Assembly: GCF_002563655.1 (NCBI RefSeq)
Contig: NZ_PDIY01000001.1
Coordinates: 1,297,501 to 1,361,500 of the forward strand
DNA from: Bacillus sp. es.034
GTDB lineage: Bacteria > Bacillota > Bacilli > Bacillales > Bacillaceae_B
DNA length: 64,000 nt
Reading direction: 5' to 3'
Every line of letters begins with the position of its first letter. Position 1 is the first letter of the stretch. The notes under the pieces were generated by a model, which worked only from the letters and a program-made list of their open reading frames with translations, had not been told where the DNA came from and did no database searches. Made by a program: the position numbers and the translations under genes. Shown here in pieces: positions 19,209 through 57,018 of the stretch.

Positions 19209-20159
19209 TCACTGATTAACATAGTTTTTAAATTGTTTCATGGTGACAGAATGAAAGATTTGATATCTTGGAATCTCATATATGTGAGATTCAGGGGTAG
19301 CTAAAGCTTCTTCGGTAGTGAACGCCATTTTGAAACCAAGTTCTTTCAGGATATTGATAGTGTCGGGTGAATATTCTCCATAAGGATAAGCGAAGGCGAG
19401 ATTCTCACCTTCTAAATGAAAGAGGCTTACCCCTAAATCTTTTTTTATTGCCTTTCGCGGCTTTGACAATAAATAAGGTGTGAGTGCGCCATTCTTTTCA
19501 TGATCCCGTTTATGAAGGTTATAGGTGTGACTCTCATATTGAAATACATCGCATGCCTTTGTGAGCTCTTTAGTGCTGAAGTACTGGACATAATCCGGGG
19601 TGTATGGCTGAATGCGGTTGGAAATGGATCCGGTGATCAAGAAGCTTGCAGCTTGAAAACCATACTCTTTCAATATGGGATAGGCTTCGACATAATTATC
19701 TTTATACCCGTCGTCAAAGGTTATGACGACACTTTTCTCGGGAATCTTCATATCCCGGGATAAAAAGGAATAAAGCTCCTCCAGTGTCAATGTCACAAAA
19801 CCATTTTCTTTCAGGTATTTCATTTGATTTCGGAAATTCTCCGTCGTCACGATCATCGGATTAATTTCATCATCGATGTAGTGGCGTTTTGACAGGTCTT
19901 TTTTTTCTGTAATACGGTGATACGTCAGGACGGGGATGCTTTTTGCTCCTTCTCCCTTCACAGAAAATGAACGGATCTCCTGCTCTGACCCCTTGATACA
20001 GGCATCAAGGCCAAGTTCTTTGTTTTCAGGGTAGGCACCTTTGTACTCTTTGGCCAGGAGATCATATTTGTTGATGAAGAACCCGAATCCTAGGAATATA
20101 AAGCTGACAAGAAAGAGAAATCCAAAGGCAAAAGTGACTTTCATGATAAACTGCTTCAT
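19209..20159 (-). CDS. Polysaccharide deacetylase (NodB homology, PgaB/IcaB-like), membrane-anchored
   Basis: 316 aa. An N-terminal membrane segment (residues ~8-30) anchors an extracellular NodB domain. Deacetylase motifs seen: TYHRI, the metal-binding TFDDGY (~150), SHTYNLH and FAYPYGEYS. The family removes acetyl groups from GlcNAc polymers; IcaB/PgaB partially de-acetylate poly-beta-1,6-GlcNAc outside the cell. ATG 20159 overlaps the upstream GT2 stop (ATGA), which fixes the start; a GTG at 20180 is also in frame. Last gene of the three-gene exopolysaccharide operon. Confidence 0.9.
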   Translation of the reverse strand: MKQFIMKVTFAFGFLFLVSFIFLGFGFFINKYDLLAKEYKGAYPENKELGLDACIKGSEQEIRSFSVKGEGAKSIPVLTYHRITEKKDLSKRHYIDDEINPMIVTTENFRNQMKYLKENGFVTLTLEELYSFLSRDMKIPEKSVVITFDDGYKDNYVEAYPILKEYGFQAASFLITGSISNRIQPYTPDYVQYFSTKELTKACDVFQYESHTYNLHKRDHEKNGALTPYLLSKPRKAIKKDLGVSLFHLEGENLAFAYPYGEYSPDTINILKELGFKMAFTTEEALATPESHIYEIPRYQIFHSVTMKQFKNYVNQ

Positions 20160-21502
20160 GCCCTTTTTTCTCCCTTCCACCCTACAGATCCGGATCGCTC
20201 CAGCTTATCCCACGCCTGAGGCTTGTAGAAATAAGATAATGTCCCATACACAACAAAGGCCAGGTTAATCATTCGGTAAATAAAGATTTCAAAAGGGAGG
20301 AAGAGCAGGATGCGCCCAATATCTTTTTTTGAAAATGTAATGTTATGCAGATGACAAATATAAATCGTTGTAATGCTTTGGTACATAAAAAGGAAAACCG
20401 CCGTAAACCCGAGTAGGATCAATAAAATGAAGTTTCCCCTGTTCATCAAGAGCACAAAGGGAGTGATGATGACCGGGAAGGCGTTGAGAGTGCCGATCAG
20501 AAACTGATCCAGGAGAAAGAAGATAGAGAAACGTTTTGAAAATTTGTGAAAATAACATCTGCGATAGTGAACGAGGCAATCAATAAAGGCCTTCTGCCAC
20601 CGGACCCTTTGTTTGAACATATCCCTGAATGTACTGGGGCATTCCGTATAACAGATGGCACCCGGGGCAAAGGCAATCTTCTCTTTTCGTCCGTTTTCTT
20701 CGATCCACTTATGGAGCTTTAAGGTAATATCCATATCCTCTCCGATTGTGCTCCGGAACCCTTTGATTCTAAAGAGGGTCCCCCTCCTGAAGGCTCCAAA
20801 AGCTCCAGCAATCACCGTTATGGCACCGACAGTGGCCTGAGCCCGTTTATGAAGGAAGAATGCAGTTAAATATTGGAGGAACTGGTATCTTATAATGCCG
20901 CTTACCTGAAAGGTAGGTCTTAATTGATGCAGTTCACCCGTGAATGCCTGAGCTATCATGACGTTTCCACCCGAGGCGATGACTTCCCTTTCTTGGAAAA
21001 CAGCATTCATTTCTGATAAGGCATTCGTTTCCAACATACTGTCTGCATCGAGGGTAATGACAATCTCATTTTTGCTAAAATTGATTCCGGCATTGAGTGC
21101 ATCTGCTTTCCCACCGTTTACCTTGTCCAGTACGAAGATGCCGGAATATTTAGCAGAACGATAGACATTGAGTATTTCCTTATGCTTCAGTCTGCTGTCT
21201 ACAGGTCGATAATATGCCTTCAAATCAAGGGTTTGATTCAATACCTCGAGGGTTTGGTCTATGGACCCGTCATTGACAATGACGAGCTCGGCACCACGGT
21301 GATCCTGATGAAGAAAACCTTGTATACAATTCCCGATCACCTTGTCTTCGTTATAGGCAGGGACAATGACAGAAAAGCTGTGATTCTTAAAGACGGCCTT
21401 TTTCTTCTTTTTTTCATTCTTGAAAATAGGAATGATGATATATACGGTCTGGAACAACACAAAAGCGATGAATATAGCGAATGTGAGATAGAGAAAAAAC
21501 AT
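20156..21502 (-). CDS. Processive family 2 glycosyltransferase (PgaC/IcaA-like polysaccharide synthase)
   Basis: 448 aa. One N-terminal membrane segment (~3-25), a cytoplasmic GT2 domain (~40-290) and several C-terminal membrane segments. Motifs of processive synthases are visible: VPAYNE, VNDGS (first Asp), TLDADS (DxD), GEDMDI (catalytic Asp) and QRVRWQ (Q-x-x-RW). It polymerises a UDP-sugar, by family UDP-GlcNAc into a beta-linked glycan, and extrudes it. The coupled deacetylase supports a PNAG-like product; the GH16 partner would instead fit a beta-glucan. ATG start close behind the GH16 stop. Confidence 0.9.
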   Translation of the reverse strand: MFFLYLTFAIFIAFVLFQTVYIIIPIFKNEKKKKKAVFKNHSFSVIVPAYNEDKVIGNCIQGFLHQDHRGAELVIVNDGSIDQTLEVLNQTLDLKAYYRPVDSRLKHKEILNVYRSAKYSGIFVLDKVNGGKADALNAGINFSKNEIVITLDADSMLETNALSEMNAVFQEREVIASGGNVMIAQAFTGELHQLRPTFQVSGIIRYQFLQYLTAFFLHKRAQATVGAITVIAGAFGAFRRGTLFRIKGFRSTIGEDMDITLKLHKWIEENGRKEKIAFAPGAICYTECPSTFRDMFKQRVRWQKAFIDCLVHYRRCYFHKFSKRFSIFFLLDQFLIGTLNAFPVIITPFVLLMNRGNFILLILLGFTAVFLFMYQSITTIYICHLHNITFSKKDIGRILLFLPFEIFIYRMINLAFVVYGTLSYFYKPQAWDKLERSGSVGWKGEKRA

Positions 21503-21507
21503 AGCAT

Positions 21508-22377
21508 TTATCTCTCCTTACTGTTTGCTTGATAGACCCTTACATAGTCGATCAGAAATTCTTTTGTGGAGCTATCATTAGGATCCGGTGGACCGGGCCA
21601 CGTTCCGCCAATGGCTGTATTTATATAAAGAAATAAGGGGGTGTCAGGTGAATACATTTTCGTTTCAAAAACGACTTCACCATCAAGGGTCCACGAAATG
21701 TTATCCTTCTCCCAAATCAATCCATACGTGTGAAAGTCATCAGAAAAATTGGTTTCGCTAATGTATGTTGAGTAGTCTCTCTGTTTTTCTCCATTTGAAT
21801 CTGTCCAGTGAACGACAAAATAAATTTCATTCGGCACCTGTCCGATATTTTCCATGATATCAATCTCAGGAAGCCATTTTTCACTATTGGAATTTACGAG
21901 CCATAAAGCAGGGAAAATTCCAGTTCCTTCAGGGATCTTTGCCCGTATTTCCACTTTTCCGTAAGTGAATTCAAAGAGATCTTCTGTGGTGATGGCCCCG
22001 GATGTGTAGTTTCTCTCTTTGAACCGTTCTTTTTTAGATTGTATAACCAGATGTCCATCCCTGATTTTCAGATTGTCAGGAGAGTAGTATTGTAACTCTT
22101 CATTCTTATCTGAAGCCCAATCCTGCAAGTTCCACCTGCTTTTGAAATCATAGCTGTCAAAATCATCGTTCCATACTAATGACCAGGGGCTTTCTTCTTT
22201 TTCTTCTGCCGATAACGCCTTTGGGGGAAGTTCCACTTCTCTTTTCATCACTTCACTTTCCTTTGTTCCCCCTTCCGTACTTTCGAATTTTTTCTTTACG
22301 GAATCAAGAAGATCTTCTTGATTAGAACAACCCGAGACTGTGAGCATCGCCAGTAATATCCCTGCTATTAATCGAAT
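21508..22377 (-). CDS. GH16 beta-glucanase lipoprotein, probable ATT start
   Basis: About 289 aa. A GH16 domain spans ~80-285: the catalytic ExDxxE signature is PEIDIMEN, with WNDDFD near the start and TAIGGTWPGPP near the end. These enzymes cleave beta-1,3 (or mixed) glucans. The only ATG (22347) lies inside the lipobox segment. Reading upstream in frame from ATT (22375-22377) gives RLIAGILLAMLTVSGC, a complete lipoprotein signal, with AAAGGGGGA 6-7 nt before the ATT. I therefore propose ATT initiation (or a mutated ATG). First gene of the operon; a GTTC-N8-GAAC palindrome lies ~80 bp upstream. Confidence 0.82.
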   Translation of the reverse strand: MRLIAGILLAMLTVSGCSNQEDLLDSVKKKFESTEGGTKESEVMKREVELPPKALSAEEKEESPWSLVWNDDFDSYDFKSRWNLQDWASDKNEELQYYSPDNLKIRDGHLVIQSKKERFKERNYTSGAITTEDLFEFTYGKVEIRAKIPEGTGIFPALWLVNSNSEKWLPEIDIMENIGQVPNEIYFVVHWTDSNGEKQRDYSTYISETNFSDDFHTYGLIWEKDNISWTLDGEVVFETKMYSPDTPLFLYINTAIGGTWPGPPDPNDSSTKEFLIDYVRVYQANSKER

Positions 22378-22457: not shown

Positions 22458-22473
22458 GTTCTGTATTGAGAAC
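22458..22473. promoter_or_regulatory. GTTC-N8-GAAC operator upstream of the exopolysaccharide operon
   Basis: GTTCTGTATTGAGAAC: inverted repeat GTTCT-N6-AGAAC, each arm matching 6 of 7 positions of the SinR half-site GTTCTYT. A further half-site (TAAGAAC, 22421-22427) lies between it and the GH16 start. Confidence 0.55.
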
Positions 22474-22547
22474 AATTGTAACAAAAAAAAATAAAGGGGT
22501 AAAGAATAAACAAGTCATTGTGAAAGTAAATTTGTTTTCCCCCATAT

Positions 22548-22706
22548 TTAATGAGTGTTGAATGTCTTCCACTGGTCGTACTCATGGATGGCCATTCCAC
22601 CAAAACCGGATTGACCGGCATACCATTTGTTCGATATCCAGTTGAGCACCGTGAAATCTCTCCATTTCATCTGCTTCATCATTGAAATCCAACCTGATCC
22701 CTTGTT
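22548..22706 (-). pseudogene. Remnant of a larger protein (C-terminal fragment)
   Basis: A 52-codon open stretch on the minus strand, preceded by an in-frame TGA and without a proper start, encodes a compact aromatic-rich sequence (NKGSGWISMMKQ..., NWISNKWYAGQSGFGGMAIHEYDQW). It reads like the C-terminal end of an enzyme domain; a glycoside-hydrolase-like origin is only a guess. It lies directly upstream of the exopolysaccharide operon and may be a decayed former member. Confidence 0.45.
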
Positions 22707-22862
22707 TCAACGGGTTTTGTAAAGAAAAAAAGACAGGTCACGACGAAGGTGATGAAATAGGTTCGTTTCTTCACTTTCCATGCTCCTTATTTGAAAAAAG
22801 ATACATTATCATGCTCTCCACCAATTTTCTTCGGCAAACATGATGATCACTATAGACTATGT

Positions 22863-22911
22863 AAAAACACAAGAAAAGAGCCGGTCAGACCGGCTCTTTT
22901 CTTGTGTTTTT
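22863..22911. terminator. Bidirectional terminator overlapping the DUF192 gene end
   Basis: A near-perfect long hairpin: AAAACACAAGAAAAGAGCC pairs with GGCTCTTTTCTTGTGTTTT around a short loop. The DUF192 gene stops within its left arm, so the hairpin encodes its last residues. Confidence 0.9.
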
Positions 22912-23244
22912 AATGATTTGTCCTTCCTTTATTCCAAGTAGCTTGATACTGCCTGCAGGGAGCTCTAAAACAGAATGTGCCTGTTTGACGGGGGAGGTTA
23001 TTTTCCAGGGCTGTAAGTCTGGCACGAGTTTGATCACTTTTTGTTCTCGATCGAGGAATGCTGCGTCAATGGGGAAGTTCATAAAGAACATATGAATGGA
23101 GTTGCAAGGAATGATCCAGAGCCCTTCTTTTTCCAGGGGGCGCCTTCTAAACATCAACCCCTTTAATCTGGAGGAAAAGCGATCGGCCTTCTTTAATGAA
23201 TAGGGAATTATTTGATATAAAGTGGTTTCCTCCGAGTCTTTCAT
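22885..23244 (-). CDS. DUF192 family protein
   Basis: 119 aa. A clear DUF192 protein: RLKGLMFRRRPL, the PCNSIHMFFMNFPIDAAFLD core, and a C-terminal ELPAGSIKLLGIKEGQII. The biochemical role of the family is unknown. Here it is divergent from the flp/tad operon, with ~200 bp between. No signal peptide is seen. Confidence 0.85.
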   Translation of the reverse strand: MKDSEETTLYQIIPYSLKKADRFSSRLKGLMFRRRPLEKEGLWIIPCNSIHMFFMNFPIDAAFLDREQKVIKLVPDLQPWKITSPVKQAHSVLELPAGSIKLLGIKEGQIIKNTRKEPV

Positions 23245-23345
23245 CCTATCTCTCCTTTAAAAATATAAAGATAGACCTACTATACATCAGAAAACGATTG
23301 GTTCTCAATAGCGAATTATGTCGATTTTTTTATAAGCTAAGACTA

Positions 23346-23404
23346 TTTACATGTTCATTATAATGAACTATTATGAGTGTACGAGGTAGTTCTTAAAAAA
23401 GAAC
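23346..23404 (+). promoter_or_regulatory. tad operon promoter with two GTTC-N8-GAAC operators
   Basis: TTTACA (23346-23351), a 17-bp spacer and TATTAT (23369-23374). The spacer is filled by the perfect palindrome GTTCATTATAATGAAC (23353-23368). A second, GTTCTTAAAAAAGAAC, lies at 23389-23404 just past the expected start site, 36 bp centre to centre; its reverse strand contains an exact GTTCTYT half-site. Two operators placed on the promoter imply strong repression, possibly by a SinR-type regulator. Confidence 0.65.
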
Positions 23405-23444: not shown

Positions 23445-23600
23445 ATGGTAAACAAAATGAGGCAGTTAGTGATGGAAGAGGAAGGGCAAGGGTTGTCGGA
23501 GTATGGGTTGGTGTTAGCTGGTGTAGTGACAGTAGTTGCTGCAGCAATAGTTTTATTAAGAACAGAAATTACTGATTTATTTACAAACCTCTTACCTTAA
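23445..23600 (+). CDS. flp: Flp-type major pilin
   Basis: 51 aa, normal for Flp pilins. The leader MVNKMRQLVMEEEG ends at the prepilin peptidase site; cleavage before QGLSEYG leaves Glu+5 and Tyr+6, the Flp signature. The hydrophobic stretch LVLAGVVTVVAAAIVLL follows, then a short tail. GGGAGG lies 8 nt before the ATG. It is the first gene of the tad operon and is followed by a hairpin that may favour its mRNA over the downstream genes. Confidence 0.93.
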   Translation: MVNKMRQLVMEEEGQGLSEYGLVLAGVVTVVAAAIVLLRTEITDLFTNLLP

Positions 23601-23620: not shown

Positions 23621-23652
23621 TCTCAAGCCTTATTCCCAAATGAGGCTTGAGA
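23621..23652 (+). other. Intercistronic hairpin after flp
   Basis: TCTCAAGCCT / AGGCTTGAGA, a perfect 10-bp stem with a 12-nt loop and only a short AT tail. Probably a leaky terminator or 3' stabiliser raising pilin expression relative to the assembly genes. Confidence 0.6.
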
Positions 23653-23673
23653 TTAAAAACGAGGTCGATTCCA

Positions 23674-24186
23674 TTGATTATCTATACAACTCTCAGTCTG
23701 TTATTAGGCATATCCCTAATAACAGACATCAAAAATAGAAAAATATTAAACGTTGTCACTTTACCCACTATCCTAATCGGCCTCCTATTCCATTCCATTA
23801 CACAAGGATGGAATGGATTTTTTTTTAGCGGTGCGGGCTTGCTGATGGGGATCGGAACACTGCTTATTCCGTTCTTACTTGGCGGCATGGGGGCAGGGGA
23901 CGTGAAGCTGATGGGTGCGGTCGGGGCCCTGATGGGACCTGTGTTCACTCTAAAAGCATTTGTTGTCGTGGCCCTTATAGGAGGTTTGATTTCTTTGATC
24001 CTGATCATGAAGAAAAATGGCCTTATGGATTCTCTTAGAAGCTTATATCTCTTCCCGGTTTTGTTATCAGGAACAAAAGGAATGATTCACTTGAAGCCTG
24101 ACGCGAAATCGTCCATTGCCTTTCCTTACGGTGTCCCGATCGTCATTGGAACGTTAATGACAGTGGTTTGGGGTGTTGTCTCTTGA
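23674..24186 (+). CDS. tadV: Prepilin peptidase (TadV/CpaA, A24 family)
   Basis: 170 aa with about six membrane segments. Both catalytic aspartates are visible: ITDIKNRKI (~21) and GAGDVKLMGA (~78, the GxGD motif). It removes the Flp leader and, by family, processes TadE-like pseudopilins. TTG 23674 is chosen: GAGGT lies 8 nt upstream and the protein then starts at the first membrane segment. The in-frame TTG 23647 overlaps the upstream hairpin. The stop overlaps the tadE start. Confidence 0.92.
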   Translation: MIIYTTLSLLLGISLITDIKNRKILNVVTLPTILIGLLFHSITQGWNGFFFSGAGLLMGIGTLLIPFLLGGMGAGDVKLMGAVGALMGPVFTLKAFVVVALIGGLISLILIMKKNGLMDSLRSLYLFPVLLSGTKGMIHLKPDAKSSIAFPYGVPIVIGTLMTVVWGVVS

Positions 24187-24536
24187 AAAGTGAAAAAGGC
24201 CAGTCTCTTGTGGAATTTGCGTTTGTGCTGCCGCTCCTTTTATTGCTTATCTTTGGGATTGTTGATTTTGGAAGGTACTTCCACGCTGCGTTAACGGTGG
24301 ACCATGCCGGCCGTGAAGCGGCGAGGGCTGCCAGTGTAGGAAAGAGTGATGTGGTGGGGGTTGCTGTGAGGAACGGTTCGAGCATCGGTTTGAGTGCCGG
24401 GCAGGTACAGTTTTCGAAATCCACAGAGGAAGCTACCGTTCGCATCGTCTACCCGGTCACATTTATTACACCTGTTATAGGATCCCTTGTTGGAACTTTA
24501 CAAGTGGAAGATACCACAGTAATGAGGATTGAATGA
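24183..24536 (+). CDS. tadE: TadE-like pseudopilin
   Basis: 117 aa. Short leader MKSEKG followed by QSLVEFAFVLPLLLLLIFGIV, the TadE prepilin-like segment with Glu+5, then DFGRYFHAA and the REAARAAS region typical of TadE. A minor pilus component. TTG 24183 overlaps the tadV stop (TTGA); GGGGTG lies upstream. Its own stop overlaps the next start (ATGA). Confidence 0.9.
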   Translation: MKSEKGQSLVEFAFVLPLLLLLIFGIVDFGRYFHAALTVDHAGREAARAASVGKSDVVGVAVRNGSSIGLSAGQVQFSKSTEEATVRIVYPVTFITPVIGSLVGTLQVEDTTVMRIE

Positions 24537-25447
24537 TGATGAGCCGATTAAAATCTCTATTGATGAATGAACAGGGAAATATAGCGGTGACGGCAGCCTT
24601 ATTTATGGTCGTTTTGTTAGGGATGGTGGGGCTTGCTTTGGATGGGGGAAAGATTTATGCCGAAAAGAGCTCCCTGCAAAAAGCCCTGGATGCCTCCGTT
24701 TTAGGGGGAGTACAGGTCATTGCCAGTAAAGGGGAAGCAGAAGCGGTCACAGTGGCGAAAAACCTTGGAGCCAAAAACGGCCATTCCCTCGTTGGAGGTA
24801 CATTTTCCACTACCGGCAAATCGATAAAAGTCAGTCAGGAAGTGAAGGTTCCACTCACATTTGCCAGGTTTCTGGGTTTCAACGAAGCGACGGTTTCCGC
24901 TTCTGCCAAAGCGATTGCGGCGCCTCTGAAGAAAGGGATGAGGATTACCCCGATTGCGGTGGAAAAGGATTCGTTGCCATCTAATACGGAATTGAAATGT
25001 GAGAATACCGGAAAAAATCATGGAAACTGCGGCTACCTAGCCTTCGACGGCAGAGGGGCAAGCAATCTTAAAGACAATATCATAAACGGGGTGGAAGTTT
25101 CGGTTGGGGAACTTGGGACGGTTGAAACCGAGCCGGGACAGAAGTGGGGACCCGTTCAGGATGCCTTTGAAACCCTGATCAGCCGTGACGCCGGTAAGCC
25201 CCATTGTCAAAGCGCTGCTACGGCCGACAAACAATGTGCCCGTGTCATTTATATCGTCGTCATCGATACATGGGAAGGGGTTAATGGCCGGGATACAGTA
25301 AATGCTGTGGGATTGGCGGCCTATTGGCTGGAAGGCATGCCTGAGAAGAAAAGGGTAACAGGTAAGTTCCTTAAAATGGTCACTCAAGGAGATAGTGATG
25401 AATCGGCCCCTGATTATGGGTTATATGGTGTGAAATTGGTTGAGTAA
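24533..25447 (+). CDS. tadG: TadG-like pilus assembly protein
   Basis: 304 aa. N-terminal segment NEQGNIAVTAALFMVVLLGMV (the TadE/TadG-like Pfam region), then DGGKIYAEKSSLQKALDASVL, usual for TadG-type proteins. The extracellular part has an isolated pair of Cys-containing loops (KCENTGKNHGNCGYL; HCQSAATADKQC) that may form disulfides. The von Willebrand-type domain of long TadG proteins is not evident at this length. Translationally coupled to tadE. Confidence 0.85.
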   Translation: MMMSRLKSLLMNEQGNIAVTAALFMVVLLGMVGLALDGGKIYAEKSSLQKALDASVLGGVQVIASKGEAEAVTVAKNLGAKNGHSLVGGTFSTTGKSIKVSQEVKVPLTFARFLGFNEATVSASAKAIAAPLKKGMRITPIAVEKDSLPSNTELKCENTGKNHGNCGYLAFDGRGASNLKDNIINGVEVSVGELGTVETEPGQKWGPVQDAFETLISRDAGKPHCQSAATADKQCARVIYIVVIDTWEGVNGRDTVNAVGLAAYWLEGMPEKKRVTGKFLKMVTQGDSDESAPDYGLYGVKLVE

Positions 25448-25477: not shown

Positions 25478-26065
25478 ATGAAAACGAAGCGTATATGGAT
25501 GTGGTCATTTGTATTTGGAATCATTGCGGCACTTGTCGCTTATATCGTCGTCATTCCGGCACCTGCACCGGTTCCTGCTTCCACGACTACGGCGGTGAAG
25601 GACGATGGGAAGGAGAAGCAGGACGAAAAAGAGCCTGAAGTGCCAAGCAGGGAAATGAATAATAAAATGATTCCCGTTGCGGAGGGTATGAGGGCAATCT
25701 CCCTTAAAGTCGCTCTGGAACAGGGCGTTTCAGGGTATATTGAGCCAAATTCACATATTGATATCATTGCCTTTGAATCAACCATTGATGGGAAAACCAA
25801 GAAAGAAATGAGAACAGCAAATGTCCTACTGCAAAATGTGAAAGTCTTGACTTCAGGCAAATCAGCAGATGGACCGGATGAAGCCTTACGATATGAAACG
25901 GTAACCGTGGAGGTAACACCTGCACAAGGGGCTGAACTCAGTTTAGCTTCTAAGGACAAGGACGGATTCTACTTTATGCTACGGGGTAAAGAGGACACGA
26001 AACTAGAAAAAGACCCAATTTCATTTTCAAGGGAAGTCTTTAAAGAAGGGGAGAGTGAGGAATAG
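25478..26065 (+). CDS. cpaB: CpaB/RcpC-like Flp pilus assembly protein
   Basis: 195 aa. N-terminal membrane anchor (~7-28), a Pro/Ala-rich then charged linker (~29-58), and a compact SAF/RcpC-type domain (MIPVAEGMRAISLKV; GVSGYIEPNSHIDII). It is short compared with ~250-300 aa for proteobacterial CpaB. In Gram-positives it presumably stabilises the pilus path through the wall. Ribosome binding site GGGAGG about 6 nt upstream. Confidence 0.85.
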   Translation: MKTKRIWMWSFVFGIIAALVAYIVVIPAPAPVPASTTTAVKDDGKEKQDEKEPEVPSREMNNKMIPVAEGMRAISLKVALEQGVSGYIEPNSHIDIIAFESTIDGKTKKEMRTANVLLQNVKVLTSGKSADGPDEALRYETVTVEVTPAQGAELSLASKDKDGFYFMLRGKEDTKLEKDPISFSREVFKEGESEE

Positions 26066-27258
26066 TGATTAATTGGTTTTATTACTCAGATACCAACACA
26101 GCTCCGGGGGACCTGGAGTTACTCCTTCAGAAACAGTCATACGAACTCCACCAATTTCCACAATGGGAGGACTTGATTTACCGGATTAAAGAAACGGATC
26201 ATTCCATTCTATTCCTTAAAGCCAATGCCATCTATGACGGATTCGAGCTATGTCAGGAAATTTCGATCCTGTTTCCTCATCTCTATATCATTTTAATCGT
26301 GCCTGATCATATGGAGAATGCAAGAAAAGCCATGAATGTGGGGGCATCCAATATTCTTCGTCATTCCTCGGAACAAGGAGAGAAAAAGGAGGTCATCGAT
26401 CAAGCCGTTAAATACTTAAAGCTCCGTGAAAGTGGAGTGAACTTTCATCTTGCGAAAAATTGTAAAGTCATATCGGTCTGCAGTCCTAAAGGAGGGATCG
26501 GTCGAACCACTACGGCAGTCAACCTGGCAGTGACGTATGCCCAGATGGGAAAAAAGGTAGGGATGCTTGACGCCAACCTTCAATTTGGTGATCTGAATAT
26601 GCATTTTGATATCAGACCGAATGGAACGCTTTACGAATGGGTGAAGGAAGAGTATGAGCGACATAGCTATTCCATCGATAAATACCTGGTTTTACATGAC
26701 AGCGGTGTCTCGATCCTACCGGCACCCCTCAGACCGGAATTTTTCGAAATGATCACCGAGACTCATATAGAGAAGGTGATCGAAGAAATGAAAATGATGT
26801 TTGATATTTTAATCATCGATATCCCTTCCTATTTATCAGAAGTTCATTTGAAGTGTCTGGAACGCTCAGAAGAATGCCTTTTATTGGTGACGAATGACCT
26901 TCCTGTATTGAAACGCAGCAAGCTTTACATTGAAGCCCTGGATTCCTTCCAGCTTAGGGAAAAGATAAAAATCATTCATTTACTCAGTAAGAAGAATAAG
27001 CAGGTTGATTCAACCAAAATGGAAAGAATTCTGGAAGCAGCCGTATTCTCAACATTGCCGATTCAAGAAGCAGTGATCTCTCAATCGGTTAACCTCGGGG
27101 TACCGGTCGTCCTTTCACATCCACGTAAACCGATCGGGAAGAGTTTTCTCACATTAGCGAAAAAGCTTAGCGAGCCGACTGCAACTTTAAAACAAGAGGT
27201 CCCGCCAAAAACGAAAAAAGGCGTCAAGCAATTAGTCCCTATGAAAGGAAGGGTGTAG
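26065..27258 (+). CDS. tadZ: TadZ/CpaE-like MinD-type ATPase
   Basis: 397 aa. An N-terminal receiver-like atypical domain (~1-120) is followed by a MinD/ParA ATPase domain. The deviant Walker A motif is CSPKGGIGRTTTAVNLA (~138); the usual second Lys (GKT) is Arg, while the signature Lys of KGG is kept. DANLQFGDLNM and DILIIDIPSY supply the other nucleotide motifs. TadZ localises the Tad machine to its assembly site. GTG start overlaps the cpaB TAG by one base. Confidence 0.87.
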   Translation: MINWFYYSDTNTAPGDLELLLQKQSYELHQFPQWEDLIYRIKETDHSILFLKANAIYDGFELCQEISILFPHLYIILIVPDHMENARKAMNVGASNILRHSSEQGEKKEVIDQAVKYLKLRESGVNFHLAKNCKVISVCSPKGGIGRTTTAVNLAVTYAQMGKKVGMLDANLQFGDLNMHFDIRPNGTLYEWVKEEYERHSYSIDKYLVLHDSGVSILPAPLRPEFFEMITETHIEKVIEEMKMMFDILIIDIPSYLSEVHLKCLERSEECLLLVTNDLPVLKRSKLYIEALDSFQLREKIKIIHLLSKKNKQVDSTKMERILEAAVFSTLPIQEAVISQSVNLGVPVVLSHPRKPIGKSFLTLAKKLSEPTATLKQEVPPKTKKGVKQLVPMKGRV

Positions 27259-27259
27259 G

Positions 27260-28606
27260 ATGGCCGTCTTCAGCAAGGTTGCTCAAAATCAAAATCAAAA
27301 CCAAAACGGTAAGCATCACGTTGAAGCCAAGCTGAGAGCTCCTAAAACAAAGGAGTTCTGGGAAATGGGATCCAGACTGCATCACTATATAATAGAAGAA
27401 GTGAAGAAATATCCCGGTCTGAGTGAGGACGAGGAAAAAAGTAAAATAAAAGAATGGAGTGAAGAATTTATAAATGAAGAAGGGGGGCGTTTGACCTTTG
27501 AAGAAAAAAATCAACTTATTGAAGCGGTGGAAGATGAGCTTCTTGGGTACGGGCCGATCACCCCTCTTTTGGAAGACTCCTCTGTTTCAGAGATTATGGT
27601 CAACGGGCCCCATCAAATCTACTACGAGCAACATGGAAAGCTGATTCGAAGCTCATTCACCTTCAGGGACGATCAGCATGTTCAGAGAATCATCGAAAAA
27701 ATTGTTTCACCCATCGGCCGAAGGGTAGACGAGAGTTCTCCCATGGTGGATGCCAGGCTTCCAAATGGTTCCCGTGTTAATGCGATTATCCCTCCTCTTT
27801 CATTAAAAGGCCCGATCGTGACAATAAGGAAATTTTCCGAGACGCCTTTTTTAATAGAAGATTTAATCCAATTTGAGACATTGAATCATGATATGGCAGA
27901 ATTTCTTAAAGTATGTGTATTGGGACGCTTGAATATCTTTATCAGTGGGGGGACAGGTTCAGGAAAAACATCTTCCCTGAATGTCCTTTCCTCGTTCATT
28001 CCTCAGGATGAGAGAATCGTGACCATTGAAGATGCAGCAGAACTGCAGCTCTCCCAAGACCATATTATCTCTCTTGAATCCAGACCCACCAATATTGAAG
28101 GAAGAGGGGAAATCACGATCCGGGATCTCGTCCGCAATGCGCTGAGGATGCGTCCCGATCGGATTGTGGTAGGAGAAGTGAGGGGGACAGAAGCACTTGA
28201 TATGCTTCAAGCGATGAACACCGGCCATGATGGAAGCTTGAGTACGGGGCACGCCAACTCGCCACGTGATATGCTTGCCCGTCTGGAAACCATGGTCATG
28301 ATGGCCGGGTTTGATTTGCCGGTGCGGGCAATCCGGGAACAGATTGCCAATGCCATCGATGTCATCGTCCAACAGGTACGTCTGAAGGATGGGTCAAGAA
28401 AAATCACCCATATTACAGAAGTGCAGGGGATGGAAGGAGAAACCATCGTTCTTCAAGACCTTTTTCATTTCAAGGAAACCGGTTGGTCCCCTGATGGGAA
28501 AGTACAGGGAAGGTTTGTCTCCACAGGGATTCGGCCAACATTCATCGAACAACTTGAAGGAAATGGCTTAACAGTATCCTCTTCCTGGTTCAAGGGGGAG
28601 TGGTAA
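27260..28606 (+). CDS. tadA: TadA/CpaF secretion ATPase
   Basis: 448 aa. Type II/IV secretion-type ATPase that powers Flp pilus assembly. An N-terminal domain (~45-200) contains the TadA/CpaF motif DELLGYGPITPLLED and SEIMVNGP. The catalytic domain has Walker A SGGTGSGKTS (~232), the ASP box, RIVVGEVRG (Walker B) and GSLSTGHAN (His box). The unusual N-terminus has Gln-Asn repeats (NQNQNQNQN), a possible slippage site. Starts 1 base after the tadZ stop. Confidence 0.95.
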   Translation: MAVFSKVAQNQNQNQNGKHHVEAKLRAPKTKEFWEMGSRLHHYIIEEVKKYPGLSEDEEKSKIKEWSEEFINEEGGRLTFEEKNQLIEAVEDELLGYGPITPLLEDSSVSEIMVNGPHQIYYEQHGKLIRSSFTFRDDQHVQRIIEKIVSPIGRRVDESSPMVDARLPNGSRVNAIIPPLSLKGPIVTIRKFSETPFLIEDLIQFETLNHDMAEFLKVCVLGRLNIFISGGTGSGKTSSLNVLSSFIPQDERIVTIEDAAELQLSQDHIISLESRPTNIEGRGEITIRDLVRNALRMRPDRIVVGEVRGTEALDMLQAMNTGHDGSLSTGHANSPRDMLARLETMVMMAGFDLPVRAIREQIANAIDVIVQQVRLKDGSRKITHITEVQGMEGETIVLQDLFHFKETGWSPDGKVQGRFVSTGIRPTFIEQLEGNGLTVSSSWFKGEW

Positions 28607-28607
28607 T

Positions 28608-29570
28608 GTGGAAAACGGTGTTTGGATTTTTGGCGTATTCATACTGACAACCAGTATCTTCTATATTGTTTTTTCAGTGGTGATGAAAAAGAGACAGGTT
28701 CAAAAGCGCATTGATCGCTTTTTTGGCCCCACTTCCTCCCGGCAAAGTGAGAAAGGTGAGGTGAAGAAGGATCCAACTTTGGAGAGAATCAGTAGTGCGA
28801 TTGCCAAGATATTCAAAGGTGTACAGTTTAGTAAGAAAACGAAGGCCCTTATCTTACAGGCAGGCAGTTCCATCCCGCCGGAACAATTCCTAGCGTATCG
28901 GTTGATGAGTGCCCTCTCCCTCTCTTTGCTGCTGTTCTTACTGCAGCTGCATTGGGTGCTTGTGCTGGTGGGACTGATTGTCGGTTTCCTCCTTCCAAAG
29001 CTGATCATGTCAAGGAGGAGGAAAAAACGACTACAAGCCTTGCCGTTACAGTTGATCGATGCTCTGGGAATGATGGCGAATTCCATGAGGGCTGGCTTCA
29101 GCTTCATGCAGGTGATGCAGCTTGTCGGAAAGGAAATGCCATCTCCCATCGGTCCTGAATTCCAACGGGCGGTCCGTGATGCAGGGCTTGGGGTCCCACT
29201 TGAGAAAGTGTTTGAGGATATGATTTTCAGCTTGCCTAATAAAGAATTGGAGGTTGCCCTCGAAGCCATCATTGCTCAAAGGAGGAGCGGGGGGAACTTG
29301 GCCGAACTACTGGAAACGATGGAGGATACCATCAGGGGGAGAGTGCGGATCATGGGGGAGCTGAATACATTGACTTCTCAAGGTAAGCTATCTTCCTTGG
29401 TCATCACCATGCTCCCGATCGGGCTGGGCTTCTATTTATTCGTTGTGGATCCCGAATATTTCGGTCCGCTCATCCACGAGCCAATGGGTATTGCCATGCT
29501 TGTACTGGCAGGCTTCCTCGTTTTGCTTGGCTGGTTCGCCATTCAGAAGATTCTTCGGATTGAGGTGTAG
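28608..29570 (+). CDS. tadB: TadB-type inner-membrane platform protein
   Basis: 320 aa. One N-terminal segment, two central segments (~103-140), a cytoplasmic T2SS/F domain (LIDALGMMANSMRAGFSFMQVM ... RSGGNLAELLETM) and C-terminal segments (~262-318). It forms the platform with TadC. GTG start, GGGGGAG upstream; an ATG two bases earlier is out of frame. Confidence 0.92.
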   Translation: MENGVWIFGVFILTTSIFYIVFSVVMKKRQVQKRIDRFFGPTSSRQSEKGEVKKDPTLERISSAIAKIFKGVQFSKKTKALILQAGSSIPPEQFLAYRLMSALSLSLLLFLLQLHWVLVLVGLIVGFLLPKLIMSRRRKKRLQALPLQLIDALGMMANSMRAGFSFMQVMQLVGKEMPSPIGPEFQRAVRDAGLGVPLEKVFEDMIFSLPNKELEVALEAIIAQRRSGGNLAELLETMEDTIRGRVRIMGELNTLTSQGKLSSLVITMLPIGLGFYLFVVDPEYFGPLIHEPMGIAMLVLAGFLVLLGWFAIQKILRIEV

Positions 29571-29573
29571 ATT

Positions 29574-30497
29574 ATGAGTATTGTCTTTCTTTTAATGACC
29601 ATCTGTTCCTTTACATGCTTATCAGCGGCCGTCCTCTTGACCATTAACCGCAAAAGGATTGCCGTTGATCACCGGATCCATCACTATTTTAACCATATTC
29701 ACCAGGTGGACTCTGTTGAAAAGGCAAATAGGAAAAAGAGATCCCAGCGTCCTTATTCACCATTATGGAATCGTGGGCTGCAGCTGATCAGTAGAAAAAC
29801 GAGCAAAGCGAAACAAAAGAAGCTCGATCATCTCATCCGCGATGCCGGTTACGCGGGCAGGTTGACAGCTTTGGAATTCCGGCTGATTCAACTGCTTCTA
29901 AGCGTTGGAGGGGGTGTGACTGTTTTCTTCCTCTTTGCTCCTATAGCAGATAATATGATGATGACGATGCTTCTGGCATTTGGCGTTTTCTTTCTTGGCA
30001 TTCAATACTGCACATTCTACTTGAGTAAAAAAAGGACCAGGAGAATTGCCGAGATTAATAGGGCAATGCCTGATTTCTTCGATACGGTGAATCTATTGAT
30101 CGAGGCCGGACTCGGATTGGATGCCGCTATTTTAACGGTTTGCCAAAAGAAGAAAGGGCCGCTTTCCGAGGAGTTCATGTTTGTTCTCGAAGATATGAAA
30201 CGAGGAAAATCAAGAAGGGAAGCGTTCTATGAACTGAGGATGAGGGTACCCTCCGATTCCCTGCAAAGTACGTTGACCACCATGATCCAAGCAGACTATC
30301 TGGGAGTAGGGATGTCAAAGGTCATCCGAAACCTGACCATCCGCATCCGGGAGCAGAGAAGAGAAGCTGCCAGGGAGCAGGCCATGAAAGCCCCGGTCAA
30401 AATGCTTTTTCCCATGGTATTCTTCATTTTCCCTTCCATCTTCATCGTATCCCTGGGACCTCTCATCGTTAAAATCCTGACAGAAGGACTCATGTAA
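29574..30497 (+). CDS. tadC: TadC-type inner-membrane platform protein
   Basis: 307 aa. Same layout as TadB with the T2SS/F domain (AMPDFFDTVNLLIEAGLGLDAA ... MIQADYLGVGMSKVI), and an APVKMLFPMVFFIFPSIFIV C-terminal segment as in TadC. Last gene of the operon; a dispersed hairpin repeat starts three bases after its stop and probably terminates transcription. Confidence 0.92.
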   Translation: MSIVFLLMTICSFTCLSAAVLLTINRKRIAVDHRIHHYFNHIHQVDSVEKANRKKRSQRPYSPLWNRGLQLISRKTSKAKQKKLDHLIRDAGYAGRLTALEFRLIQLLLSVGGGVTVFFLFAPIADNMMMTMLLAFGVFFLGIQYCTFYLSKKRTRRIAEINRAMPDFFDTVNLLIEAGLGLDAAILTVCQKKKGPLSEEFMFVLEDMKRGKSRREAFYELRMRVPSDSLQSTLTTMIQADYLGVGMSKVIRNLTIRIREQRREAAREQAMKAPVKMLFPMVFFIFPSIFIVSLGPLIVKILTEGLM

Positions 30498-30814: not shown

Positions 30815-30908
30815 AGCGTACGATAAAGGCAAACCCATTGAAAAATGGTGACGCAAAGCTATAGGGGTTTCCGTCGTGGAGACGATGCCAGCCAGTTACC
30901 GTGTACGC
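30815..30908 (+). ncRNA. Cyclic-di-GMP-I riboswitch (GEMM)
   Basis: The GEMM-I core is readable: GATAAAGGCAAACC (30822-30834), a GAAA-type tetraloop hairpin (CCATTGAAAAATGG), GACGCAAAGC (30850-30859), the tetraloop receptor/variable helix, and GATGCCAGCCAGTTACCG closing it. Outer strands GCGTAC / GTACGC (30815-30820 and 30903-30908) form P1. It lies ~213 nt upstream of the CWB2 protein gene on the same strand. No terminator is visible right after it, so the output mode is unclear. Confidence 0.88.
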
Positions 30909-31121: not shown

Positions 31122-32588
31122 ATGAAGAAAATCTGCACCTGCTTATGTGTGTTTCTACTTGTCTTCAGTTTCAGTATCACTCCAACCCTTGCTGCCGGTT
31201 CCTTTGATCCATCATCCGTCAAAAAAGAAATTCATTCTGTTTCAAAGCAACAATCATCCAAGGCACTCGGTGATTCCATTCCCGATGGTCTGAAGGAAAA
31301 GATGAAAGGATTGAAGAAGGTAGAAGATATGAAATTGATGGGGGATATATATGAACAGGAACCTAATGATGCCCCTCATCAGGCTGACGCGATCAATCTT
31401 GACGATATTGTATTCGGAACCTTCTGGTGGGAAGAAGACTTGGACTTTTATAGCTTGAATATGGATGAAACCCAAGATACGTATATTTACGGAGCCACAT
31501 TGACGCCCCTCAATGACCTTGGATATTTGCTTTTTAGTCCGGATGGAGAGGCGATTTATCCGGATGAGTTGCTCCAAGAGGGAAGTGAAAAACTACTGAT
31601 CTATTATTCATTACCGCCAGGTTCATATTATCTGGTAGCCACAGATCTAAACATGTTTGGTGGAGACGGAGTCTATGGTCTTACCGCTTTTACTGGTGAA
31701 GAAACCACAGATAATGTGTATCGGATATACGGAAACGACCGGTACGAAACTGCGATTGAAATCTCAAAGGCAGGATGGCCGGATGGTTCAGATACGGTTG
31801 TACTGGCAAGAGATACCACATTTCCTGACGCCTTGGCAGGTGCCCCCTTTGCTTATCAGGAAGATGCGCCGATCCTATTAAATTCAAAGGGTAGCTTAAA
31901 TAATAAAGTGAAAGAACGAATAAAAGAATTAGGGGCTAAGAAAGTGGTCATTTTAGGAGGAGAGGGAGCAATATCCGGTGAAGTAGCCAAGGACCTGAAG
32001 AAAAACGGCTTGGACGTACAACGGATCGGAGGGAAAACAAGATATGAAACGGCAGCAAACATCGCGAAACAACTGGGCGATTATAAACAGGCCGTCATTG
32101 CCTATGGCGGTAACTTCCCGGATGCCTTATCCATCGCCCCGTATGCTGCATCCAATGGGATTCCGATCCTTTTGAGCCCTAAACAAGAATTAGCGAGTGA
32201 AACGAAGGAAGCCCTGAAGCCTGTTTCGGATACGATTATAGTGGGAGGGAAAGCAGTCATCTCAGAGCAGGTGGAAAAACAACTTGCCAAAAAGAACCCT
32301 ACTCGCATTTCAGGTAAAGATCGTTACGAAACATCGGTCAACATCGCCACTCAGCTTCAAATTCCGGGGGATATCATTACGGTGGCAACAGGAGAGAATT
32401 TTGCAGATGCCCTAACAGGATCCGTGCTTGCTGCAAAATACTATGAGCCTATTATTCTGGTTCAGAAAAATAAAGTGCCAGCACCGGTAAGGACGTATAT
32501 TTCAGATAATAGAACCTGGTATTACACCGTACTTGGTGGAGAAGGGGCTATTTCTGAACAAGTGGTGCAAGAGCTGAGCGGTTTGTAA
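31122..32588 (+). CDS. Secreted protein with PPC-like domain and three CWB2 repeats
   Basis: 488 aa. Signal peptide (1-25, TPTLAAG), a linker, a pre-peptidase C-terminal-like beta domain (~80-190; NDAPHQADAINL ... LPPGSYYLVATD) and three CWB2 repeats (RIYGNDRYETA, RIGGKTRYETA, RISGKDRYETS). No catalytic domain is seen, so it is likely a wall-bound structural or adhesive protein. A c-di-GMP-I riboswitch in its leader suggests surface expression tuned by c-di-GMP. Ribosome binding site AGGAG is 8 nt upstream. Confidence 0.88.
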   Translation: MKKICTCLCVFLLVFSFSITPTLAAGSFDPSSVKKEIHSVSKQQSSKALGDSIPDGLKEKMKGLKKVEDMKLMGDIYEQEPNDAPHQADAINLDDIVFGTFWWEEDLDFYSLNMDETQDTYIYGATLTPLNDLGYLLFSPDGEAIYPDELLQEGSEKLLIYYSLPPGSYYLVATDLNMFGGDGVYGLTAFTGEETTDNVYRIYGNDRYETAIEISKAGWPDGSDTVVLARDTTFPDALAGAPFAYQEDAPILLNSKGSLNNKVKERIKELGAKKVVILGGEGAISGEVAKDLKKNGLDVQRIGGKTRYETAANIAKQLGDYKQAVIAYGGNFPDALSIAPYAASNGIPILLSPKQELASETKEALKPVSDTIIVGGKAVISEQVEKQLAKKNPTRISGKDRYETSVNIATQLQIPGDIITVATGENFADALTGSVLAAKYYEPIILVQKNKVPAPVRTYISDNRTWYYTVLGGEGAISEQVVQELSGL

Positions 32589-32763: not shown

Positions 32764-33885
32764 ATGACTAGTGCTTCAACCATGCTGATACAATACCTGG
32801 AAGATCATTCGGACGAATTTCTACATAATTGGCGCAAAAGTATCGTACTTTCAGATAATGATATATATAAAGAAGAAGTATTGAACAATGGTGTGAAGAT
32901 GTTTCAATTAGTGAAGCGTGCGATTGTGAAGCCCCTCACGGAAGATGAAATCACCACACTTGCCAACAAGACGGCTCTTGAACGGGTCAATGCCAACGTG
33001 AATATCAGCGAATTTGTATATAACGTAAATATAGGCAAGAGCATCATCATCAAATGGGTGAGTAATTCTGGAATTGAACTCAGGGAATTACAGCCCTTGA
33101 TTGAAGATATCAATTCGCTATTTGACCGCTTTTCCTATCTTGCCGTCAGAAAATATACGGAGATCAAAGAGCAGCAGCTTCAAGAGAAGGAACTGTATAT
33201 TGATCAGACCCACAAGGAGCGCTTGACGATTCTCGGTCAGATGAGTTCAAGCTTCGTTCATGAATTCCGGAATCCACTGACGTCCATTATCGGTTTCACC
33301 AAGCTCCTGCAGAACGGCTACCCGGATCTTCCTTACCTGGATATCATGCAGCATGAGCTCGAGCAATTAAATTACCGCATTTCTCAATTCCTTCACGTAT
33401 CGAGAAAAGATCTGATCGATAGTACAAGGGAAGAAATCTTCCTGACCAGTCATTTGGGAGAGACCATCGAATTCCTGTATCCGAGTCTCCTGGATGGAGA
33501 TGTTTCAATCGAATTCAAATGTGAGCCTGATATCAAGGTGCTCGGAAACCGTGATGAGTTAAGACAGGTATTCCTCAACCTCATCATGAACTCCATCGAT
33601 GCCCTTCAAGAAGTGGACGGGCACAGGCAGATCAATGTCGCCTGTGATGTGAAAGATGGCCGAACGAATCTCGTCATCTCCAACAATGGCCCCCGGATCA
33701 AAGTAGAAACCATCGAAGCGATCTTTGAACCTTTTTACACGACGAAAGACCTCGGGACGGGGATCGGCCTTTATATTTGTAAAAAGCTGATTGAAAAGCA
33801 TGGTGGTTACATATACTGTCATTCTGATGATAAGTGGACCACGTTTACGATTGGGATTCCTGTTGAATCCAATTTGGTCATATGA
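32764..33885 (+). CDS. Sensor histidine kinase, soluble, sporulation-kinase-like
   Basis: 373 aa without membrane segments. An N-terminal all-helical sensor domain (~1-130) of the type preceding some Bacillus kinases, a coiled linker (EIKEQQLQEKELYIDQ), then HisKA with FVHEFRNPLTS (His ~166), N box NLIMNSIDAL, FEPFYTTKDLGTGIGLYICKKL (G2). The G1 Asp of the usual DNG is Asn (ISNNGP). The HExRNPLT H-box resembles sporulation phosphorelay kinases. No response regulator gene is adjacent. Monocistronic between two terminators. Confidence 0.88.
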   Translation: MTSASTMLIQYLEDHSDEFLHNWRKSIVLSDNDIYKEEVLNNGVKMFQLVKRAIVKPLTEDEITTLANKTALERVNANVNISEFVYNVNIGKSIIIKWVSNSGIELRELQPLIEDINSLFDRFSYLAVRKYTEIKEQQLQEKELYIDQTHKERLTILGQMSSSFVHEFRNPLTSIIGFTKLLQNGYPDLPYLDIMQHELEQLNYRISQFLHVSRKDLIDSTREEIFLTSHLGETIEFLYPSLLDGDVSIEFKCEPDIKVLGNRDELRQVFLNLIMNSIDALQEVDGHRQINVACDVKDGRTNLVISNNGPRIKVETIEAIFEPFYTTKDLGTGIGLYICKKLIEKHGGYIYCHSDDKWTTFTIGIPVESNLVI

Positions 33886-33990: not shown

Positions 33991-34028
33991 TGGTGTAGGA
34001 AAATAGAATCATTTAGTTGGGAGCGGAT

Positions 34029-34460
34029 ATGGTCATGGTACAAAATGAAAAAGGGGTAACATTACTTGAAGTGCTCTTATCCATAACGATATTATCCATT
34101 ATTCTACTGTCCATCACAAATTTCTTTCCTCAAATGGGGATGATGAATGAGCACAATAGAGCGAAATCACAAGGTGTGAATGAAGCCAAAGAGGTATTGG
34201 TAAAGTTGAAAGCTTCCAAAGAAGTACGTGAATTCCTTATAGATCCCACACCAATCAATCGACCGGTGGAATATAAAAGTGAAGACAATACCTATTTCTA
34301 TTTTAATACTTCGGAACAAGATTTTGATATACATATAAAAATTAAAAAGAAATCTGACTTGAATTCGACTCCATCTAAAGCCCATTTGGTTGAGATTAAG
34401 TTACAGAAAGATCATCGTACGGTGAGTGAAACCTACGGATACATCTCTATCGATGAATAA
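34029..34460 (+). CDS. Type IV prepilin-like protein 1
   Basis: 143 aa. Type III signal MVMVQNEKG then VTLLEVLLSITILSIILLSIT; the peptidase site is G/V with Glu+5. The rest is a small soluble domain with no recognised family. ATG 34029 has GGGAG 5 nt upstream; an in-frame TTG 34017 and ATG 34035 are alternatives. First of three overlapping pilin-like genes without their own ATPase or platform genes. TadV belongs to another pilus class; the ComG/ComC machinery would be the natural partner. Confidence 0.83.
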   Translation: MVMVQNEKGVTLLEVLLSITILSIILLSITNFFPQMGMMNEHNRAKSQGVNEAKEVLVKLKASKEVREFLIDPTPINRPVEYKSEDNTYFYFNTSEQDFDIHIKIKKKSDLNSTPSKAHLVEIKLQKDHRTVSETYGYISIDE

Positions 34461-34473
34461 AGGGGGGAGTTTG

Positions 34474-34908
34474 TTGAATGAACGTGGAGTGACTTTAATT
34501 GAAGTTCTGGCCACCATTACCATATTATCGATTATCGGTGTAGTGATCTGGAATGTTTTTTTTCAAGGTCTTACTTATTCAGATAAGGCAGTTACTCAGA
34601 ATACAATGCAGCAAGAGTCTAACTATATTAGCTTGAAGCTTACAAGGATCCATCAAACCTCTAAAGAGTATGAACTTACTAGTTCAGACTGTATGATCAA
34701 GGTGGAGTACGTTACCAAAAACAAAGGGACATTGGAAGAAACGTTTAAAGAGCCGGGTTTATGTGTGTCAACAAGCTTCTCAGGAAGTATTGATCCAAAT
34801 AAAGAGGACCTGTCCCTGACCATTTCGATCCGTGATAAAGAGAGAGCTGCCAATAAGTTTGATTTGAAAACGGTATTCTACAGGTTGAAGGAGAATGGGA
34901 TAGAATGA
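34474..34908 (+). CDS. Type IV prepilin-like protein 2
   Basis: 144 aa. Leader NERG then VTLIEVLATITILSIIGVVI (Glu+5), followed by a soluble domain with two Cys (SSDCMIKVEY; EPGLCVST) that could form a disulfide. TTG 34474 is preferred because GGGGGGAG lies just upstream; ATG 34453, overlapping the previous gene, is possible but lacks a ribosome binding site. Its stop overlaps the next start by 4 bp. Confidence 0.82.
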   Translation: MNERGVTLIEVLATITILSIIGVVIWNVFFQGLTYSDKAVTQNTMQQESNYISLKLTRIHQTSKEYELTSSDCMIKVEYVTKNKGTLEETFKEPGLCVSTSFSGSIDPNKEDLSLTISIRDKERAANKFDLKTVFYRLKENGIE

Positions 34909-56830: not shown

Positions 56831-56869
56831 CCTCTATAAGGTAAATTTTTCGAAAATTACATACATTCA

Positions 56870-57018
56870 ATTATCAAGAGTGACCGAGGGATCAGGCCCT
56901 ATGACGTCCGGCAACCTCCAGAAGTGGAACGGTGCTAATTCCTGCAGAATGATTTCATTCTGAGAGATAAGTCGAGATAGACAGGCGATGCTTCTTTCAG
57001 TTGAAAGAGGCATTTTTT
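56870..57018 (+). ncRNA. S-box (SAM-I) riboswitch with terminator
   Basis: Conserved S-box blocks: TTATCAAGAGTGACCGAGGGA (start, ~56871), GGCCCTATGACG, CCGGCAACC, GGTGCTAATTCCTGCAG and GAGAGATAAG closing P1. It is followed by a terminator hairpin ATGCTTCTTTCA / TGAAAGAGGCAT with T6 (56988-57018). With SAM bound, transcription ends before metN; low SAM allows readthrough. Confidence 0.96.

Follow-up and report, generated by a model that had tools for sequence, protein, structure and literature searches.

Gene content and promoters of the tad and GH16 loci

The window, the whole 64,000-nucleotide stretch of Bacillus sp. es.034 DNA that was analysed, carries a tad operon on the plus strand and, on the minus strand, an operon for a GH16 glycosidase lipoprotein, a GT2 polysaccharide synthase and a polysaccharide deacetylase (Table 1). 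The expected components of a Tad operon are present, namely the Flp pilin, prepilin peptidase, secretion ATPase, two T2SSF proteins, RcpC and TadE, with the pilin itself giving no Pfam match at 0.001. A sensor kinase with a HisK_N domain (32764-33885) adjoins the tad locus, and 3' of it (34017-36122) lie two genes with an N-methylation motif and a 405-aa gene without a Pfam match. The window also contains an S-box SAM riboswitch at 56868-56973.

The GH16 gene probably begins near 22377 at an ATT codon, judging from the alignment of its start region. The bases at about 22375-22377 read ATT here, ATC in G014 and ATT in G047, with a good ribosome-binding sequence on the 5' side, and relatives such as G007, G051, G010 and G050 have ATG. 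A non-standard GH16 start codon in three species is thus possible.

Table 1. Coordinates of genes, promoter-like pairs and palindromes in the window
Feature	Position	Strand	Evidence and remarks
Polysaccharide deacetylase	19209..20180	-	PF01522
GT2 polysaccharide synthase	20156..21502	-	PF13641/PF00535
GH16 glycosidase lipoprotein	21508..22347	-	PF00722
GTTCTGTATTGAGAAC, palindrome at the GH16-GT2-deacetylase operon promoter	22458..22473	none	SinR-type; exact pattern match
Weak promoter-like pair TTTACC-17-TACAAT, GH16 operon	22475..22503	-	Consensus scan; not above shuffles
GTTCTCAATAGCGAAT, third tad site, imperfect	23301..23316	none	7 of 8 fixed bases; 5' of the promoter
Promoter-like pair TTTACA-17-TATTAT, tad operon	23346..23374	+	Consensus scan; both hexamers identical in all four genus loci
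GTTCATTATAATGAAC, putative tad operator 1	23353..23368	none	Perfect palindrome; within the -35/-10 spacer
GTTCTTAAAAAAGAAC, putative tad operator 2	23389..23404	none	36 bp 3' of operator 1; just 3' of the expected start
Flp pilin, 51 aa (P0001), first tad operon gene	23445..23600	+	Aligns with Flp-type pilins of other tad loci
Prepilin peptidase	23647..24186	+	PF01478
TadE-like protein	24168..24536	+	PF07811
TadG-like protein	24533..25447	+	PF13400
RcpC/CpaB	25478..26065	+	PF16976
TadZ/CpaE-like ATPase	26065..27258	+	PF13614; Tad name from position
TadA-type ATPase	27260..28606	+	PF00437; Tad name from position
TadB-type membrane protein	28608..29570	+	PF00482; Tad name from position
TadC-type membrane protein	29574..30497	+	PF00482; Tad name from position

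The first-pass annotation of this DNA had described three palindromes of the form GTTC-N8-GAAC, one filling the spacer of the tad promoter and another just past its start site, and had set their number against chance expectation. The letters were rechecked and the three palindromes are real, being the sole exact matches in the window (22458-22473, 23353-23368 and 23389-23404). The described geometry also holds. TTTACA occupies 23346-23351 and TATTAT 23369-23374, with operator 1 filling 16 of the 17 spacer base pairs, and 14 bases lie between the -10 hexamer and the second tad palindrome, which stands just past the expected start site. The GH16 palindrome is separated by one base from a weak minus-strand -10-like hexamer, in a GH16/tad upstream region where promoter matches show no excess over shuffled sequence (3 versus 2.9). 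A perfect GTTCTYT is found in one of the six half-sites of the window, that of 23389-23404 in its minus-strand reading.

The numerical argument fared worse. Three palindromes in the window is not a significant count, as shuffles average 1.04 and reach three or more in 10 of 100 cases, and genome-wide the pattern is not enriched, with 82 matches versus 109 for its reversed form. The annotation had proposed a genome scan for inverted repeats of GTTCTYT; in the form GTTCTYT-N2-ARAGAAC these likewise show no enrichment at up to two mismatches (96 versus 89 for the control). Since window shuffles and genome-wide counts are both unremarkable, the earlier argument from the window alone would not stand. 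A signal emerged only from the AT-core form GTTCNWWWWWWNGAAC and from comparison between genomes. The AT-core form occurs at five sites genome-wide, versus one for the control: two at the tad promoter, two at the sin locus and a fifth at 3597650. The GH16 site lacks the AT core.

Recurrence of the palindromes in related genomes

Within the genus, a pilin search of 41 genomes identified orthologous tad loci in four genomes, including that of the window, at identities of at least 66 per cent. Relatives matched by TadA include Rossellomorea aquimaris and [Bacillus] enclensis, both assigned to Rossellomorea in the NCBI taxonomy, which makes Rossellomorea the most probable identity of the genus. 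All four orthologous loci keep both palindromes 36 bp apart, together with the promoter hexamers and the third site. Operator 1 is identical throughout and lies inside the -35/-10 spacer, operator 2 differs by one base in G014, and the imperfect third site retains 6 or 7 of its 8 fixed bases. A fifth, more distant tad locus of the genus, in G036, has no palindrome.

The sites extend to other genes of the genus, scored within 400 bp 5' of each. GH16 operons taken as orthologous carry a palindrome in 11 of 12 cases, with diverged cores and varied positions; this set comprises 12 of 29 matches, the other 17 lying in frames of at least 812 aa and being left out. Second sinR genes carry one in 16 of 21, a set drawn from 30 loci, in the remaining nine of which the best match was canonical SinR. 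For DUF5658 genes, a palindrome is found in 8 of 25, and 17 of the 25 are without an exact site. Eleven permuted half-sites gave 0-1 site each in each of these three sets. Canonical sinR has no exact palindrome within the same distance in the nine loci tested. Conservation upstream of orthologous operons, on which the first-pass annotation had hung its proposal, is therefore seen for tad (4 of 4 in the genus) and for GH16 (11 of 12), and the comparison of tad upstream regions among relatives finds the palindromes recurring in 11 of 26 families.

The latter count comes from an order-wide survey in which 75 of 299 genomes gave a match to a Flp pilin profile; together with G014 and G036 these 77 genomes, from 26 families, supplied 87 tad loci. 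Already-counted downstream pilins of the same clusters were dropped (L186, L187, L189, L196, L203 and L208, for which L267-L272 were taken instead, and the like), as were two further loci, a second one of G039 on contig 32 and one of G292 on contig 33. Seven rows lack a start codon at their beginning (L201, L244, L253, L259, L262, L263 and L265). Counting exact matches only, within 400 bp 5', 32 sites were found at 24 of the 87 loci, in 24 genomes; 63 loci are without an exact site, including that of G036 from the same genus, and family f21 supplies 8 of the 24. The same regions yielded 0-2 sites for 11 permuted half-sites and 0-6 for spacings of 2-15 other than 8, showing the inverted-repeat arrangement with a preference for N8, and 87 kb of downstream sequence held one site.

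Paired sites are frequent in this survey. At 16 of the 24 loci, the gene-nearest site has a partner that matches at least 6 of the 8 fixed bases and is located 5' of it at a distance of 34, 35 or 36 bp, the background rate at a single position being 0.0064. As in the window, 13 of the 16 paired loci have TATTAT, TATAAT, TACTAT or TACAAT directly 3' of the upstream site, as judged by eye, and G121, from another family, shows the full layout of TTGACC, palindrome, TATAAT and palindrome. All four sets give GTTCTTTA as their symmetrised majority half-site, of which the search pattern itself dictates the first four letters. Among the 64 half-sites of the tad set, GTTCTYT is found in 26 and GTTCT in 46.

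A SinI-family domain is encoded by all 24 genomes with a tad site. Sites occur in 24 of 61 SinI-positive and 0 of 16 SinI-negative tad genomes, a Fisher p of 0.0017 that ignores kinship, with SinI-family status taken from a domain survey of the 299 genomes and determined separately for G014 and G036.

Among named tad loci, 13 were scanned of the 79 found by a TadA search, some of them likely the same genomes as in the order-wide survey. Seven bear a palindrome before the pilin gene, including those of [Bacillus] enclensis, R. aquimaris, Sutcliffiella horikoshii and Bacillus sp. B15-48; six do not, and in two of these no pilin was recognised.

An order-wide scan for close palindrome pairs matched 32 of 299 genomes, and its reversed control, by hand count, also matched 32. 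It was rejected as evidence of enrichment, with several matches lying in GC-rich or repetitive coding sequence, and was used just to pick loci for inspection (L162-L182). The lack of an excess of genomes indicates that the signal resides in particular promoters rather than in whole genomes. One inspected locus of another family, L174, has paired sites before a gene named by sight as exopolysaccharide-type, in agreement with the known targets of SinR.

The distribution of sites over Tad lineages was followed on a tree of 79 prepilin peptidases, eight of the 87 loci being left out for lack of a recognised prepilin peptidase. Sixteen of the 24 palindrome loci fall in a group of 20 rows (support 94/86), four form a group of four (98/95), one lies in a group of 40 other Tad loci (100/99) and three sit on long branches near the latter group. 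The palindrome label changes seven times on the tree, versus a mean of 20.8 when shuffled; seven changes imply that gain or loss has been common. The site of G066, in a clade otherwise without sites, may be due to chance. Five genomes with two tad loci (G121, G123, G312, G119 and G224) have palindromes at one locus and none at the other, and five further two-locus genomes have none at either. Together, the clustering on the tree and the mixed two-locus genomes point to particular Tad lineages under SinR-type control, not to a general promoter feature.

The sin locus and c-di-GMP aptamers

Homologues of SinR and SinI, which the first-pass annotation had proposed to look for, are present in the genome according to Pfam and PDB SinR matches. 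The sin locus, near 1.035 Mb, encodes a 106-aa SinR-like protein, SinI, and SinR in a 109-aa frame, SinR itself being probably 106 aa long from a TTG start. Both regulators, SinR and the second SinR-like protein, contain HTH_3 and SinI domains and match PDB SinR with E values of 2.6e-36 and 1.3e-22, respectively, and the recognition-helix region of SinR is nearly unchanged relative to the PDB protein. The palindromes of the sin locus, GTTCATTATATAGAAC and GTTCTTAAAAATGAAC, are close in sequence to the tad pair. Other close SinR-like matches at 4480502, 709738/709933, 912384 and 3671138 were set aside because they lie inside long open frames.

The DUF5658 gene of the same genome, encoding a small membrane protein, has two sites on its 5' side, one of them imperfect. 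This gene (PF18902; 6829-7131 of fetched stretch L041) has SinR-type palindromes in the genus, and similar small genes of another family, matched by sight (L163-L170), carry palindrome pairs 53-54 bp apart. At a separate locus, L173, a SinR-like gene stands beside an open reading frame resembling a sortase by sight, with three palindromes in the locus.

A c-di-GMP-I-GGC aptamer lies 31 bases before sinI in the genome of the window (5795-5910 of fetched stretch L040). An Rfam check covering 20 of 30 sin loci of the genus found a c-di-GMP-I type aptamer in all 20. In 15 of these, an open frame that resembles SinI on visual inspection follows after 9 to 33 bases, and in the other five the sequence ends before the next frame. 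The window holds a c-di-GMP-I aptamer of its own at 30818-30903 (64.5 bits), 3' of tadC and before a CW_binding_2 gene (31122-32588). None of seven other tad loci, out of the 79 of the TadA search, has such an aptamer at the Rfam gathering score, and it was accordingly rejected as a general part of the circuit.

Interpretation and relation to known systems

The reading we favour, with a probability of roughly 0.85, is that the palindromes are SinR-family operators through which the tad and GH16-GT2-deacetylase operons would be jointly repressed, and jointly freed once SinI removes SinR. The half-site GTTCTTTA fits the published SinR motif, and the published SinR inverted repeat is also N8-spaced. 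At the tad promoter, one SinR dimer would occupy the -35/-10 spacer and a second would sit about 35 bp 3', just past the start site, so that a single SinR tetramer could hold both sites and shut out RNA polymerase. The neighbouring GH16-GT2-deacetylase operon bears the same kind of site, which argues for its repression jointly with the pilus, and SinI, by taking SinR away, would release pilus and polysaccharide at once. Three steps of this model are predictions from sequence: that SinR itself rather than a paralogue binds, that binding represses, and that both tad dimers belong to one tetramer. The first-pass proposal of one regulator for pili and polysaccharide thus gains support from the presence of SinR and SinI and from the conserved sites, from which we infer SinR binding and repression.

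The sites could instead belong mainly to the second SinR-like protein, which in an SlrR-like role would act as a dedicated, autoregulated controller of tad and matrix genes. This protein resembles SinR in its DNA-binding region, and sites lie at its own promoter region in 16 of the 21 fetched loci, which lends this reading some substance. Against it, G044 has palindromes 5' of GH16 and G036 has them 5' of DUF5658, and each of these genomes yields just two SinI-family matches, one being SinI and one an adjacent SinR. With sites present alongside only SinI and one SinR, canonical SinR suffices there, making a dedicated second regulator unlikely overall. Canonical SinR is the simpler choice of binder on these genomic grounds, and the second SinR-like protein may share its sites.

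A regulator unrelated to SinR, of the XRE type or otherwise palindrome-binding, might recognise the same motif. SinI domains are common, being found in 223 of the 299 genomes, so their co-occurrence with tad sites is not exclusive. Such a regulator is nevertheless improbable given that the site consensus matches that of SinR, that sites occur at sin loci and before the exopolysaccharide-type gene identified by sight at L174, and that the 16 SinI-negative tad genomes are all without a site. Chance palindromes in AT-rich promoters would account for window and genome counts within or below expectation and for a pair scan equalled by its control; the conserved positions, and the 32 sites observed versus 0-2 for permuted half-sites of equal composition in those upstream regions, reduce this explanation to almost nothing. 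Control by SinR-family operators remains the preferred reading.

The aptamer before sinI in the genus suggests that c-di-GMP could set SinI, whether up or down, and so the whole switch. On balance we lean slightly towards a broader form of the model, in which Tad lineages of Bacillales-type bacteria would be wired to SinR/SinI through a conserved two-operator promoter and, in this genus, a c-di-GMP riboswitch acting on SinI and thereby on SinR would set pili and polysaccharide together.

SinR is the matrix switch of B. subtilis, a species that is not known to have Tad pili, and c-di-GMP and SinR/SinI are usually treated as separate biofilm signals in bacilli. Should SinR also govern the Tad pili of other bacilli, a class of adhesive pili would answer to a biofilm switch, and attachment and matrix production would become a single decision in many of these bacteria; the aptamer before sinI would join the two signals. 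An internal control is at hand in the five genomes that pair a palindrome-bearing tad locus with one lacking palindromes. A search by title or abstract start in the open-licence literature found no account of SinR control of Tad, in line, within that literature, with the first-pass statement that Tad control by SinR-type sites is not known to have been described.

Pilin control in Caulobacter crescentus is reportedly exerted by CtrA; like the control proposed here, it acts on a pilin gene at its promoter, in an unrelated bacterium and by an unrelated regulator. A closer parallel is Bacillus methanolicus MGA3, where a c-di-GMP riboswitch is predicted before sinI, as the aptamer is placed here; the relevant passages of that source present a prediction and draw no link to Tad or to operators (PMC4342826). 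The SinR tetramer binds its motif ten-fold better as an inverted repeat than singly or in tandem, and more than two motifs may, in the view of the same authors, be engaged by tetramers (PMC3163267). The sites described here resemble the SinR operators of B. subtilis eps and yqxM, as portrayed in the passages devoted to them, in their GTTCTYT-like half-sites, several copies per promoter, inverted repeats (bound tightly by SinR there), matrix-gene targets and SinI antagonist (PMC3163267). They differ from the operators so portrayed in that the putative targets include a Tad pilus operon, and in being 16-bp inverted repeats that often come in pairs, spaced by about 35 bp, of which the first overlaps the spacer of the promoter.
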